A DNA stretch of 64,000 bases from Terriglobus roseus. Lineage in GTDB: Bacteria > Acidobacteriota > Terriglobia > Terriglobales > Acidobacteriaceae. The notes below the pieces were generated by a model. It was not told the origin of the DNA, did not search any database, and saw only the letters and a program-made list of their open reading frames with translations. Numbering within the stretch: position 1 is the stretch's first letter; the number at the start of each line of letters is the position of its first letter. The stretch spans positions 186,001 through 250,000 of the forward strand of contig NZ_LT629690.1 in assembly GCF_900102185.1 (NCBI RefSeq), read 5' to 3'. A program made the translations under genes and the position numbers. This document shows positions 47,155 to 52,124 of this stretch, one piece after another.

Positions 47155-47472
47155 ATGGCTGAGACGACTGCTACGACTACTGCTACGGCAGAGAAGATTG
47201 GCCACCGCACCGAGAAGATCGGCCTGGTGACCTCGACAAAGATGGACAAGACGATCGTTGTGTCGGTGGAAATGCGCAAGGCGCACCCCAAGTACAAGCG
47301 CATCGTGAAGTCGAACAAGAAGTTCTACGCGCATGACGAGCAGAACTCAGCCCGCGTTGGCGATCAGGTCCGCATCCGTGAGACCCGTCCCACCAGCAAG
47401 CTGAAGCGCTGGAACCTCGAAGAGATCGTTCGCCGCTCGAGCCTGAGCGAAGCGACTCCGGCTTCGAAGTAA
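47155..47472 (+). CDS. rpsQ: Ribosomal protein S17
   Basis: S17 of 105 residues: '[45 protein letters not shown]' (in pieces), '[24 protein letters not shown]' (in pieces). Compared with the usual 80-90 residues it has a Thr/Ala-rich N-terminal extension of about 15. Only two bases separate it from rpmC. Confidence 0.95.
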
Positions 47473-47658
47473 GATAAGAGTTTGCCCGTCGCCGGCATCG
47501 TTCGGTGACACTATGGGCATGACGCGTCCAGCGCGACGATCGTTGAAGATGTCGTTCAGCGATCCGCTCCGCGGCCGCGACCATTTAGTGGATTTGACTG
47601 GGGCGAGATAGCCCCCGGCCTTAGGCTCTGGAAGCCTCGAAGGTCAGGAGAAGAAGCA

Positions 47659-48030
47659 ATGTCCGTACAAATGCGTACGATTCTGGACGTAGCCGATAAC
47701 TCTGGCGCACGCCGTCTGCAGGTCATCCTGCCTCTCGGTGGTGGTCTGGGTAAGAAGGCTGGTCTGGGCGATGTGGTGACGGCAGCGGTGAAGGAAGCTT
47801 CGCCCGACGGCACCGTGAAGAAGGGCAAGGTTGTTAAAGCCGTGATCGTGCGCACCCGCAAGGAAGCGCGCCGCAAGGACGGCACCTACATCCGCTTTGA
47901 CCAGAACGCAGCCGTCGTGATCAACGACGCAGGCGAGCCGGTGGGAACCCGTGTATTCGGACCCGTGGCCCGCGAACTGCGCGACAAGAAGTTTCTGAAG
48001 ATCGTTTCGCTCGCTCCGGAAGTTATCTAA
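47659..48030 (+). CDS. rplN: Ribosomal protein L14
   Basis: The 123-residue L14 has '[22 protein letters not shown]' (in pieces), '[11 protein letters not shown]', '[12 protein letters not shown]' and '[27 protein letters not shown]' (in pieces). It forms bridges at the subunit interface. AGGAG precedes the ATG. A 186-base spacer separates it from rpsQ, and a terminator follows it instead of rplX. Confidence 0.97.
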
Positions 48031-48055
48031 CTCTCTCGAAGCGTAGGTTCCATAC

Positions 48056-48085
48056 AAAGACCGCCGGCAGTCGCTGGCGGTCTTT
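48056..48085 (+). terminator. Hairpin terminator after rplN
   Basis: AAAGACCGCC pairs perfectly with GGCGGTCTTT around a ten-base loop, 25 bases after the rplN stop. The trailing T run is short (TTTG), so read-through is possible. It separates the S10 part of the cluster from what follows. Confidence 0.65.
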
Positions 48086-48125
48086 GTCGTCTGGACACAC
48101 AACTTTCTAAGGGAAGAATAGAACG

Positions 48126-48545
48126 ATGGAGTACCGACTTATCTATTGCAGCCGTAACCGGATCGAAGGCTCGGAGCAGCAGATTGCCGAAGAAATTGAA
48201 AAGATCCTCATAAGCTCTCGCAGGAACAATGAGCAGCACAACATCACGGGTGCCCTGCTGTTCAACGGCCTCGCGTTTGCGCAGGTGCTTGAGGGGCCAC
48301 GCGCCGCCGTAGAAGCTATCTACGCCACAATCTGTGAGGACAATCGGAACAGCCACAACGTCCTGCTGGAGACCGGCGACATTGCCAAACGGGACTTTGC
48401 TCGTTGGTCTATGGCGTATTCCGGACCGGATTCCAATGGCCATCTCTACGAACACTTAAAGCTTGCCGACGTCGAGACGGATGGAGCTGGCGTTGCGAAG
48501 CGTGTGCTGGACCTGTTGAAGAGCGTTGTGCACGCGCACGTCTAG
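48126..48545 (+). CDS. BLUF domain blue-light sensor
   Basis: The 139-residue protein is a stand-alone BLUF domain with a short C-terminal helix. Flavin-site residues are present: Tyr7 in 'RLIYCSRN', Asn34/Asn35 in 'SSRRNN', 'NITGALLFNG', Gln53 in 'FAQVLEGPR', and Trp94 with Met96 in 'RWSMAYSG'. BLUF domains bind FAD and switch hydrogen bonds on blue light. No output domain is fused, so it must act through a partner. AAGGGAAG precedes the ATG. It lies inside the ribosomal protein cluster. Confidence 0.9.
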   Translation: MEYRLIYCSRNRIEGSEQQIAEEIEKILISSRRNNEQHNITGALLFNGLAFAQVLEGPRAAVEAIYATICEDNRNSHNVLLETGDIAKRDFARWSMAYSGPDSNGHLYEHLKLADVETDGAGVAKRVLDLLKSVVHAHV

Positions 48546-48564
48546 GTTTGCTTGGCGCTTGGGT

Positions 48565-49467
48565 TTAGTCCGGCGTGGTCTGGGCGATATGGTCCACGAT
48601 CAGATCTTCAATTTGGCCTGTGCCTTTCTTTAGGCGCAGGCCAAGTTGTTTTTCCAGGGCGCCGGTAAAGGTGGGCCCGCCGCCATCGCTGGTGGTCTGC
48701 GGAGCATTCGCTTCGTCGATCTGGAAGTCGAGTGTCATGTCGTAATGGCCGGTCAGGCCGGTCGCATCCACCATGCGATCCATGCCGCGCCCGCCGAGAA
48801 CACCGCCCAGGCCATCGAAGAGGGTGCATGCTTCCGGCAGTGTGACGTCGATCATGCTGACATGCATGATGCCACCTTCTTTGCGGTTGATCTGCAAACC
48901 GCAGAGGACAGGGGATGGTTTACTCGGTACCGATTCTTGAACCGGAGAGCCGGGTTTTAAACAACCGGGTGTCGTTTCATGAGGCTTCAGATTTGGGCCA
49001 GTCACGCCGGGTTTTGCCACGCTGAGCAGGTTGACCATCCCTGTGTGGTTTTCCCGATGGGCCTTCAGAGCGAAACGGTCTTCCAGCAGATTGCGCAACA
49101 TCAGGCGTATGTCTTCCATGTTCTGCGAGCCTTCCGGCGGACGCGCAACGATGGTGTACTTCTGGTGCTGCGCCCACTCGGGCAACCGCGCGCGCATGGC
49201 TCGGGCCTCGACTTCGTCGTTGACACCATAGGCGAACATGATGAGCGGCGGGAGAGCGCCAGTCATCGTGAGCAGGCCGTGCGGCGTCTGTGCTCTGCCC
49301 AGGGCGATCATGAAGCCGAGGCCTTCCATTGGAGCGTCGGGCGCAGCTGGCTTGACCGAGGCGGATTCGAAGGTAAGTGCGGTCGTTGACCTCTGTGCGT
49401 GTATTGGGAGAAAGAGCAGGCAGACCGTGAGACTGATTAATTCATAGCGTCGGGCCTTACGATTCAT
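48565..49467 (-). CDS. TIGR03435 family exported protein inside the r-protein cluster
   Basis: A 300-residue protein with a signal peptide ('LISLTVCLLFLPIHAQ') and the TIGR03435 blocks 'FESASVKPAAPD', 'IRLMLRNLLEDRFALKAHRE', 'VDATGLTGHYDMTLDF', and 'ALEKQLGLRLKKG'. The function is unknown. I start at MNRKARR (49467) because GGAG lies eight bases upstream and the signal peptide is then standard; 49491 is the longer option. It is transcribed against the ribosomal protein genes on both sides. Confidence 0.85.
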   Translation of the reverse strand: MNRKARRYELISLTVCLLFLPIHAQRSTTALTFESASVKPAAPDAPMEGLGFMIALGRAQTPHGLLTMTGALPPLIMFAYGVNDEVEARAMRARLPEWAQHQKYTIVARPPEGSQNMEDIRLMLRNLLEDRFALKAHRENHTGMVNLLSVAKPGVTGPNLKPHETTPGCLKPGSPVQESVPSKPSPVLCGLQINRKEGGIMHVSMIDVTLPEACTLFDGLGGVLGGRGMDRMVDATGLTGHYDMTLDFQIDEANAPQTTSDGGGPTFTGALEKQLGLRLKKGTGQIEDLIVDHIAQTTPD

Positions 49468-49574
49468 GTCGCGGCTCCAAAAGGAAATCATAGGGATGGA
49501 CGGTATGACTGCTTAGACGTCTGGTTCTCGTCTGGCAACGCCTCTAAACTCTAGAAATACGGGGGCCAAAGAAC

Positions 49575-49907
49575 GTGGTGCAACACATTCCAAACACGAC
49601 GGTTGACCGCATCGAAGCCATCGGTATTGATGCAAACGGTTCGTTGTGGGTAAAGCCAGCCACGAAAACTTTCCCGATGATGTACCGGGAAGGCATGGAA
49701 GTCCATTGGGATGCCTCCCGACAGTGCCTGTATAGTCCACTCCCGCGGGAGTGGAGTTATCTGCAGTGGTTTTGCCAAATCAACCGAGCTGCTGCCGAAC
49801 AAGGGGTGGCGTTGGTGGTGGACTCGCAGACTCAATGGAACAACCTTGACCAACATCTTCGCGATGAGATCGTACGCACTGTCAATAAGGCAGATTTGTC
49901 CGGATAA
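49575..49907 (+). CDS. Small protein of unknown function
   Basis: A 110-residue soluble protein with a well-formed amino acid pattern: 'IEAIGIDANGSLWVKP', 'FPMMYREGMEVHWDASRQCLYSPLPREWSYLQWF' (in pieces). I recall similar small proteins among environmental and gene-cassette hypotheticals but cannot name a family. The frame opens with two GTG codons and has no strong ribosome site. It lies directly before the rplX promoter, on the strand of the ribosomal genes. Confidence 0.6.
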   Translation: MVQHIPNTTVDRIEAIGIDANGSLWVKPATKTFPMMYREGMEVHWDASRQCLYSPLPREWSYLQWFCQINRAAAEQGVALVVDSQTQWNNLDQHLRDEIVRTVNKADLSG

Positions 49908-49931
49908 CTAGCAAGATCGATGCTTCTATGC

Positions 49932-49960
49932 TTGTATTCGCGCAAGTTTTCGCGTAAAGT
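49932..49960 (+). promoter_or_regulatory. Promoter in front of rplX
   Basis: TTGTAT (49932-49937) and TAAAGT (49955-49960) with a 17-base spacer lie about 95 bases before rplX. This would restart transcription of the downstream spc/alpha genes after the insert. Confidence 0.65.
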
Positions 49961-50053
49961 AGACAAGTTTGGTCCAACTGCATCACCTCGACCTGCGGAG
50001 GTACTCGCAGAGGCCTGTGTCCGGGACCACGGCACGGGATAGGGAGTAACGAA

Positions 50054-50380
50054 ATGGCACATGTTTTGAAGAACGATCAGGTCATTGTTCTGGCAGGTAA
50101 GGACAAGGGTAAGACCGGCCGAGTACTGCGGATTGTTACGGACAAGAACCGCGTTCTGGTGCAGGGCATCGGCATGATCAAGAAGCACGTCAAGCCGAAT
50201 CCTCAGGCAAACATTAAGGGCGGAATCTTGGAGCAGGAAGCTCCGATCCACCTTTCGAATGTGGCTCTGGTGGATGGTAACGGCAAGGCGACTCGTGTAA
50301 GCATCCGCGTGGTTGACGGCAAGCGTGAGCGCATTGCCAAGACGACCGGCGAAACGATTGCTTATCCGAAGGTGAAGTAA
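50054..50380 (+). CDS. rplX: Ribosomal protein L24
   Basis: The 108-residue L24 has the KOW motif 'DQVIVLAGKDKGKTGRVLRI', 'NIKGGILEQEAPIHLSNVALVD' (in pieces) and a C-terminal 'GETIAYPKVK'. It starts 50S assembly. GGGAG precedes the ATG. It normally follows rplN directly; here it is 2 kb away. Confidence 0.96.
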   Translation: MAHVLKNDQVIVLAGKDKGKTGRVLRIVTDKNRVLVQGIGMIKKHVKPNPQANIKGGILEQEAPIHLSNVALVDGNGKATRVSIRVVDGKRERIAKTTGETIAYPKVK

Positions 50381-50577
50381 GCGATTTTCAGATAGCAGGT
50401 GCGTAAGTGCCTGCGCTGTTCGTTGGAAGACCTCTCTGGCTTGCCAGGTGCGTTCCGGCGAAGTTCTCAAGCGAGCAGCGAATCCAGAAACACAGGAACA
50501 CCCCACGAAACGGTATACGGGCCGTGACGCGAGTCGAAGCCCAATCCGATGACCGTGGAGAAAGCGAAGTAACGACA

Positions 50578-51117
50578 GTGGCACGACTCCGTGAGAAATA
50601 TACAAACGAGTTGAAGACGGCCGTTCAGAAGGAGCTGGGCATCACGAACGTGATGGCAGTGCCGAAGATCGAGAAGATCGTCATCAACATGGGCCTCGGT
50701 GAGGCGACGCAGAACAACAAGATCATCGACCCGCTGGTCAGCGATCTGGCAGCCGTAACGGGTCAGAAGCCGGTTCTGACCAAGGCGAAGAAGTCCATCG
50801 CTCAGTTCAAGGTGCGTGAAGGCCAGTCGATCGGCGCCATGGTCACCCTGCGCGGCGAAGCGATGTTCGAATTCCTCGACCGTCTGATCTCGGTGGCTCT
50901 GCCCCGCGTGCGCGACTTTAAGGGTGTTTCCTCGAAGAGCTTCGACGGCCGCGGCAACTACACGCTCGGTCTGCGTGATCAGCTCATCTTCCCCGAAATC
51001 GATTACTCGAAGGTGGAGAAGCTGAAGGGTATGAACGTGACCATCGTGACGACCGCTGCGGACGATAACAGCGCGCGCGTCCTCCTCAAGCACTTCGGCA
51101 TGCCGTTCCGCGCATAG
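50578..51117 (+). CDS. rplE: Ribosomal protein L5
   Basis: The 179-residue L5 has '[20 protein letters not shown]', '[15 protein letters not shown]', '[21 protein letters not shown]' (in pieces) and the C-terminal 'HFGMPFRA'. It binds 5S rRNA. The start is the GTG at 50578, where L5 homology begins; the frame runs 57 codons further upstream without homology. The 197-base spacer before it has small inverted repeats such as GCAGG/CCTGC. Confidence 0.95.
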
Positions 51118-51329: not shown

Positions 51330-51364
51330 TGCTTCGCACCGTTCTCGACGTCGCTTCTGCGACG
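51329..51364 (+). repeat. Two-hairpin post-stop repeat, copy B
   Basis: GTGC-TTC-GCAC, CGTTCTCGA, CGTCGC-TTCT-GCGACG. It is identical to copy C (after rpsH) across 36 bases except one, and begins at the same point relative to the stop codon. Confidence 0.75.
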
Positions 51365-51505
51365 GATCCGAGTAGCGGTGGAGAGTATGGGCCGGCTCGC
51401 TTTGCGGCGAGCCGGTTGTAACACTTAAGTAAGTTAACGAAATCCCTTGCAGGTTCTGCCGCCATCCTTGGTCGCAGCAAACGAAGGGTAGAGAGAAGAG
51501 TCATT

Positions 51506-51904: not shown

Positions 51905-51945
51905 TGCTTCGCACCGTTCTCGACGTCGCTTCCGCGACGTGATTC
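51904..51945 (+). repeat. Two-hairpin post-stop repeat, copy C
   Basis: GTGC-TTC-GCAC, CGTTCTCGA, CGTCGC-TTCC-GCGACG, TGATTC. The trailing CGTGATTC is shared with copy A after fabH. Confidence 0.75.
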
Positions 51946-52020
51946 GTGCAACGGTGCAATGTCTTGGCCAGAGCAAAGCTCTGGATGTAGTTCTGAAGTT
52001 TTCGCAGTTACAAGTTATTC

Positions 52021-52091
52021 CCGCGAAGCAATTCGCGGTGGCTGCAGTGGAACGGTCTGCAGTGGTTAGTTCATAAAGCTAACTGCTGCAG
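52021..52091 (+). repeat. Hairpins in the rpsH-rplF spacer
   Basis: CCGCGAA-GCAA-TTCGCGG (52021-52038) is a perfect 7-bp stem with a GNRA loop. CTGCAG (52057-52062) with CTGCAG (52086-52091) and inner GTTAG/CTAAC form a second, imperfect stem. The spacer (51905-52124) has no gene. Confidence 0.6.
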
Positions 52092-52124
52092 GATCCGGGA
52101 CTCGCAAGCCGCAAGGAAAAGTAA

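Follow-up and report, generated by a model that had tools for sequence, protein, structure and literature searches.

The question raised by this locus is why rplN and rplX, two genes of a ribosomal-protein cluster with one of the best-conserved gene orders in bacteria, stand about 2 kb apart with other genes between them, and whether one of those genes, which encodes a predicted photoreceptor, is functionally tied to its ribosomal neighbours. The window, the whole stretch of 64,000 nucleotides from Terriglobus roseus that was analysed (G000:C1:186001-250000), is part of a single-contig genome of 4.85 Mb that is 99.98% complete. In it, rplN (uL14; 47659-48030; TIGR01067, E 4.9e-49) and rplX (uL24; 50054-50380; TIGR01079, E 9.8e-34) both lie on the forward strand, separated by 2,023 bp. 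Read 5' to 3', this interval holds a BLUF gene on the forward strand (48126-48545; 139 aa; PF04940, E 1.7e-26), a TIGR03435/DUF3738 gene on the reverse strand (48565-49491; 308 aa; TIGR03435, E 3e-40; DUF3738, E 1.1e-37) and a gene of the Hfx_Cass5 family on the forward strand (49575-49907; 110 aa; PF18287, E 1.6e-22; PDB 3if4, E 8.2e-25). Coordinates and profile matches confirm the 2-kb split of rplN and rplX, with its BLUF gene, antisense TIGR03435 gene and small gene, that a preliminary description of this DNA had reported. The small gene had been called unknown there, but its match to PF18287 scores 79.9 bits against a cut-off of 25, and it can be assigned to a family, if not to a function. 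Wide gaps were also noted further along the cluster, at 50381-50577 (197 bp, given the rplE start chosen at 50578), 51330-51505 (176 bp) and 51905-52124 (220 bp).

The preliminary description had proposed that the interval be compared across Acidobacteriota, and this comparison was run in a family sample of 150 genomes and a genus sample of 19. In the family sample rplN was detected in 132 genomes and rplX in 132; both were on the same contig and strand in 130, of which 125 lie outside the genus. The gap between profile matches was 20-217 bp (median 80) in all 125 of these measurable genomes, a count that omits G178 (rplX match split in two, with a gap to rplN of about 112 bp), G177 (rplX only) and G112 (no rplX match). 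Within the genus sample both genes were found in 17 of 19 genomes; G015 and G016 gave no match to either, and the rplN of G014, at the start of a contig, is incomplete. The gap measures 120-291 bp in 12 of the 17 and 1,219-3,444 bp, with genes, in the other five, and these counts are not independent since the sample includes close relatives (G002/G008/G012; G006/G009; G004/G011). Gene-bearing gaps are thus confined to the genus in this sample, where they occur in five of 17 genomes, against none of the 125 outside it.

We consider it likely, with good confidence, that this genus has a transcription boundary of its own within the spc operon and that the interval, lying at that boundary, is a site permissive to gene insertion. 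The operon of this genus would be split at rplN|rplX: transcription from rplN would end, at least partly, at a hairpin whose conservation is observed and whose activity is presumed, and rplX and the genes downstream would start from a putative promoter of their own, followed by a conserved structured leader. Because DNA placed between hairpin and promoter parts no ribosomal gene from its promoter, inserts would be tolerated there and could differ between species.

The contents of the five gene-bearing gaps do differ. The gap of G013, the closest relative and a genome of another species, begins with a BLUF gene 93.5% identical to that of G000, after which come a BKACE-family gene, a 121-bp copy of a TIGR03435 3' end, a short ORF, a TIGR03435 gene and two further short ORFs. 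The 121-bp copy (91%) is present on both sides of the first short ORF (L025:2423-2543 and L025:2971-3091), an arrangement that suggests insertion by duplication. G007 carries a TIGR03435 gene and a short ORF; G014 carries, at its contig start (L027), a ParE-like gene, the presumed partner upstream of it (without a Pfam match) and a UDG-superfamily gene barely above cut-off; and G004 carries a gene whose DUF5677 match is under cut-off. In a tree built from rplN, rplX and rplE, G000 and G013 form a pair (support 96) that G007 joins (100), G004 pairs with the insert-free G011 (100), and G014 falls outside both groups, without a firm placement. Since the tree splits the insert-bearing genomes and their cargo is unrelated, at least three insertion lineages are indicated (G000/G013/G007; G004; G014). 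Gene content within the first lineage implies further additions after the initial insertion: the TIGR03435 gene, common to G007 and G013, was probably the earliest arrival, the BLUF gene, common to G013, would have been the second, and the Hfx_Cass5 gene, matched in this genome only among the 19 of the genus, would have come last. The TIGR03435 family has 49 matches in this genome and from 0 to 58 over the 19 genus genomes; its name did not occur in the literature searched.

Repeated use of the same site is also what suggests that the inserts are, or derive from, site-targeting mobile elements such as integron cassettes. This explanation is compatible with a permissive site, and we judge it unlikely. 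One insert protein is a member of a family whose first structure came from an integron cassette, according to passages of PMC3548836, and another insert (G014) has the ParE-like gene. However, the integron integrase search gave 13 sub-threshold matches and none above the curated cut-off in this genome, on which an integron array was rejected; the 12 insert ORFs large enough to be scanned include no transposase or integrase family; and no repeat of at least 16 nt is present in 48000-50060. No insertion mechanism was found by these searches. A plasmid origin of the Hfx_Cass5 gene was likewise considered and rejected; one distant plasmid record (43.5% identity) bore on it.

If the inserts occupy a permissive site at a transcription boundary, the features on either side should belong to the genus rather than to the inserts. 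On the rplN side lies a terminator-like hairpin with a 15-pair stem (48054-48087, forward strand), identified by folding and genus comparison. The 80 nt at 48031-48110 fold to -34 kcal/mol (z -5.6), but the T tract is weak, with two T in the eight bases after the stem, and a terminator scan of 47400-50700, which listed five sites against 2.9 expected, did not list the hairpin on the forward strand. The hairpin claimed earlier is strong, but these two points count against it as a terminator, and read-through from rplN into the BLUF gene may occur. Perfect-stem hairpins of -19 kcal/mol or lower occur near the rplN stop codon in 12 of 17 genus genomes, seven of them without an insert, whereas the best 5% of 500 random 110-nt pieces of the window reach -12.8; counting perfect stems only, the hairpin is weak or was not detected in G001, G003, G005, G010 and G018. 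The same terminator scan placed a terminator-like hairpin at 50395-50414, in the gap after rplX.

On the rplX side, the promoter-like site TTGTAT-17-TAAAGT (49932-49960, forward strand) is present letter for letter as first described, with 24 bp between the Hfx_Cass5 stop codon and the -35. With 7 of 12 consensus letters it fell short of the threshold of 9 used in the promoter scan and was not listed there, and on its own the site is weak; its support comes from the genus comparison. A GTTTGGY motif lies upstream of rplX in 15 of 17 genus genomes. In 13 of the 17, eight of them insert-free, a -10-like hexamer stands exactly 12 nt before this motif and is preceded, at 17-bp spacing, by a -35-like hexamer, the two together matching 7 or 8 of the 12 letters; for this count -10 offsets of 9-14 and spacers of 16-18 were allowed and the best taken, and some of the genomes counted are close, hence non-independent, relatives. 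G003 and G010 are without the start motif, the promoter match is poor in G005, and G017 has none. Seven genomes have TAAAGT or TAGAGT as the -10, and all seven have, at 17-bp spacing, a -35 that begins with TT, a dinucleotide found at 4.7% of window positions. They do so although their spacers and the sequence further upstream vary; it was by the -10 that these seven had been selected. In the other six of the 13 the -35 reads ATGACT, TGGAAC or TGGACG. TTGTAT itself is common to G000 and G007. G000 and G013 are identical across 103 bp from about 49947, within the spacer, and their alignment breaks off immediately before that point, so that the G013 insert junction probably lies inside the promoter, with a new -35 (TTGCAA) in place of the old one.

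These genus comparisons support a working rplX promoter without proving it. The preliminary description had taken the hairpin and the promoter-like site as the edges of the insert. Their positions are as claimed, but both also occur in relatives that lack inserts (the hairpin in 7 of 12, the promoter layout in 8 of 12) and hence look native to the genus. As the insert lies between them, rplX and the genes after it probably start their own transcription, as had been proposed.

A predicted 5' leader of rplX (49967-50053, forward strand) starts with GTTTGGTCC at the predicted start site and runs to the rplX start codon. Across the genus its order is the GTTTGG start, a hairpin P1, a conserved AGG, a second, variable hairpin and the ribosome-binding site. 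P1 (49993-50010; five pairs), which the AGG follows, is present in 17 of 17 genus genomes by alignment, including all 12 that are insert-free. In an alignment of 13 sequences, from which the near-identical leaders of G013, G004, G012 and G009 were omitted, pairing holds in 65 of 65 cells and two of the five pairs are changed on both sides. None of 500 shuffles reached the covariation score or the percentage paired, but 286 of 500 had at least as many doubly changed pairs; as the rows are related, the compensatory changes provide moderate evidence for P1. By eye, 5' GGTCC appears to pair with the GGACC loop of the second hairpin, a pairing that breaks in G014. Run against this genome, a model built from the 13 sequences (R1) gives a single strong match, which lies at rplX (E 1.3e-14); the next best match has E 4.4. 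In the 150 family genomes R1 matched at rplX in five genus genomes, all of them training sequences and so matching by construction, and at none of the rplX places of the other 145 (located in 127), in a search that scored 35 candidates per genome under strict filters and that a diverged leader may escape. Eight weak matches outside the genus (E 5.5e-4 to 0.097) all lie away from located rplX places. Rfam gave no match up to E 1 in 47900-50100. The rplX leader is, on this comparative evidence, a candidate ribosomal-protein leader RNA. In E. coli the spc operon is known to be regulated by S8.

The leader also bears on the alternative that rplN and rplX are still co-transcribed through the insert, the element before rplX being a translational leader and no promoter. 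All 17 genomes have the leader hairpin but two lack the start motif, the T tracts are weak, and neither the hairpin after rplN nor the promoter-like site was listed by the scans. This alternative is nevertheless quite unlikely: the TT-starting -35 is kept at 17-bp spacing in seven of seven genomes despite differing spacer and upstream sequence, and read-through would meet the TIGR03435 gene on the opposite strand.

The cargo that drew attention to the locus, the BLUF gene, starts 95 bp after rplN on the same strand. Its domain scores 92.6 bits against a family cut-off of 25 and stands alone, without an output domain, in a PixD/BlrB-like layout with predicted helices at 108-116 and 120-138. Y7, N35, Q53 and W94 are invariant in four homologues, and the Met after the Trp is shared with Slr1694; we take Tyr, Asn, Gln and Trp/Met to be the photocycle residues of BLUF domains. 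The structural model, based on a four-sequence alignment, has a mean pLDDT of 78.1 (five models range from 59 to 78), with the linker at 104-106 below 50. The predicted fold matches TePixD, Slr1694, BlrB and BlsA, and the best-ranked matches are light-regulated adenylyl cyclases, aligned over their BLUF part. The protein is probably functional as a short photoreceptor of the PixD/BlrB/BlsA type, and the partner on which it would act is probably encoded at another locus. Between G000 and G013 dN/dS is 0.068 at a dS of 0.55 (0.16 for TIGR03435), which indicates retention by purifying selection. The dS of 0.55 compares with 0.03-0.14 in four neighbouring ribosomal genes, and could reflect codon constraint on the ribosomal genes or separate exchange of the BLUF gene.

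BLUF genes are present in six of 19 genus genomes, in none of 42 other relatives and in 16 of 300 family genomes. They adjoin rplN in two of the six, or in two of the 17 genomes with a readable interval. The BLUF proteins of the other four genus genomes are 35-42% identical to this one, and those of three Erythrobacter and Novosphingobium genes found by a contig scan are 35-45% identical. In G003 and G006, genes with GGDEF/EAL motifs, recognised by eye, directly adjoin the BLUF gene (L003:2-1923, L004:593-1803); from this, c-di-GMP signalling is a fair guess, and no more, for the partner of the protein.

Position beside rplN had suggested, speculatively, that light might act on translation. 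In such a coupling, the BLUF level would follow growth by read-through and light would feed back on translation or growth. The gene lies on the rplN strand close downstream; the sole promoter-like site nearby (9 of 12 letters, with 1.1 expected by chance in the region) would place the transcript start at about the ATG; the T tract after the rplN hairpin is weak; and the position is retained in G013 with purifying selection. Set against this, the interval lacks a BLUF gene in 15 of 17 genus genomes, three of which have it filled with other genes, and four genus genomes keep their BLUF gene elsewhere, two of them next to GGDEF/EAL genes. A more elaborate scheme, in which the genus divided its spc operon, the second half came under an rplX leader RNA, so far undescribed, that detects free ribosomal protein, the gap serves as a neutral harbour and read-through makes the BLUF level follow ribosome synthesis and ties light sensing to growth rate, is highly doubtful; the coupling itself is given very little credence, and light control of translation was rejected, with nothing in its favour beyond position and retention in two species. 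An assembly artefact is very unlikely, to the point of being negligible, as no point was found to support it, the genome is one contig and G013 shares the rplN-BLUF junction. We regard the BLUF gene as unremarkable for a photoreceptor gene; what is unusual, and constitutes the finding, is where it sits.

The genus offers a natural test of what holds this cluster together, co-transcription or mere proximity, and the region before rplX is marked as a candidate regulatory RNA. A functional link should not be read from the position of the BLUF gene beside rplN without further evidence.

Each component has known counterparts. The BLUF protein resembles the short BLUF photoreceptors (PixD/Slr1694, Tll0078, BlrB, BlsA) in its 139 aa, its one domain with two C-terminal helices and its photocycle residues, but it is 25-31% identical to them among the fold alignments listed and its gene sits in a ribosomal cluster. 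The Hfx_Cass5-family protein aligns with Hfx_Cass5 (PDB 3IF4) over residues 12-101 and keeps YRE..E and PxPREW, which passages of PMC3548836 call conserved; here, however, the gene is chromosomal, with no integron integrase above cut-off. The rplX leader resembles ribosomal-protein leader RNAs (Eckert and Weinberg 2020, PMC7247131) in being a structure, supported by compensatory changes, that immediately precedes a ribosomal-protein gene, but it matches no Rfam family, and a term search found none of rplX, uL24, uL14, rplN or Acidobacteri in the main text of that paper. As for the cluster, passages of a published survey describe two gene insertions in Gammaproteobacteria, tusDCB and bfd-bfr, between operons of the cluster, and mention recombination at rpsN inside spc as well as transposon integrations. 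By those passages, the cases are alike in that small gene sets entered an operon cluster of exceptional conservation, for which transposons or duplication have been put forward as the means of entry, and they differ in that the site here is rplN|rplX, an apparent genus-specific boundary.
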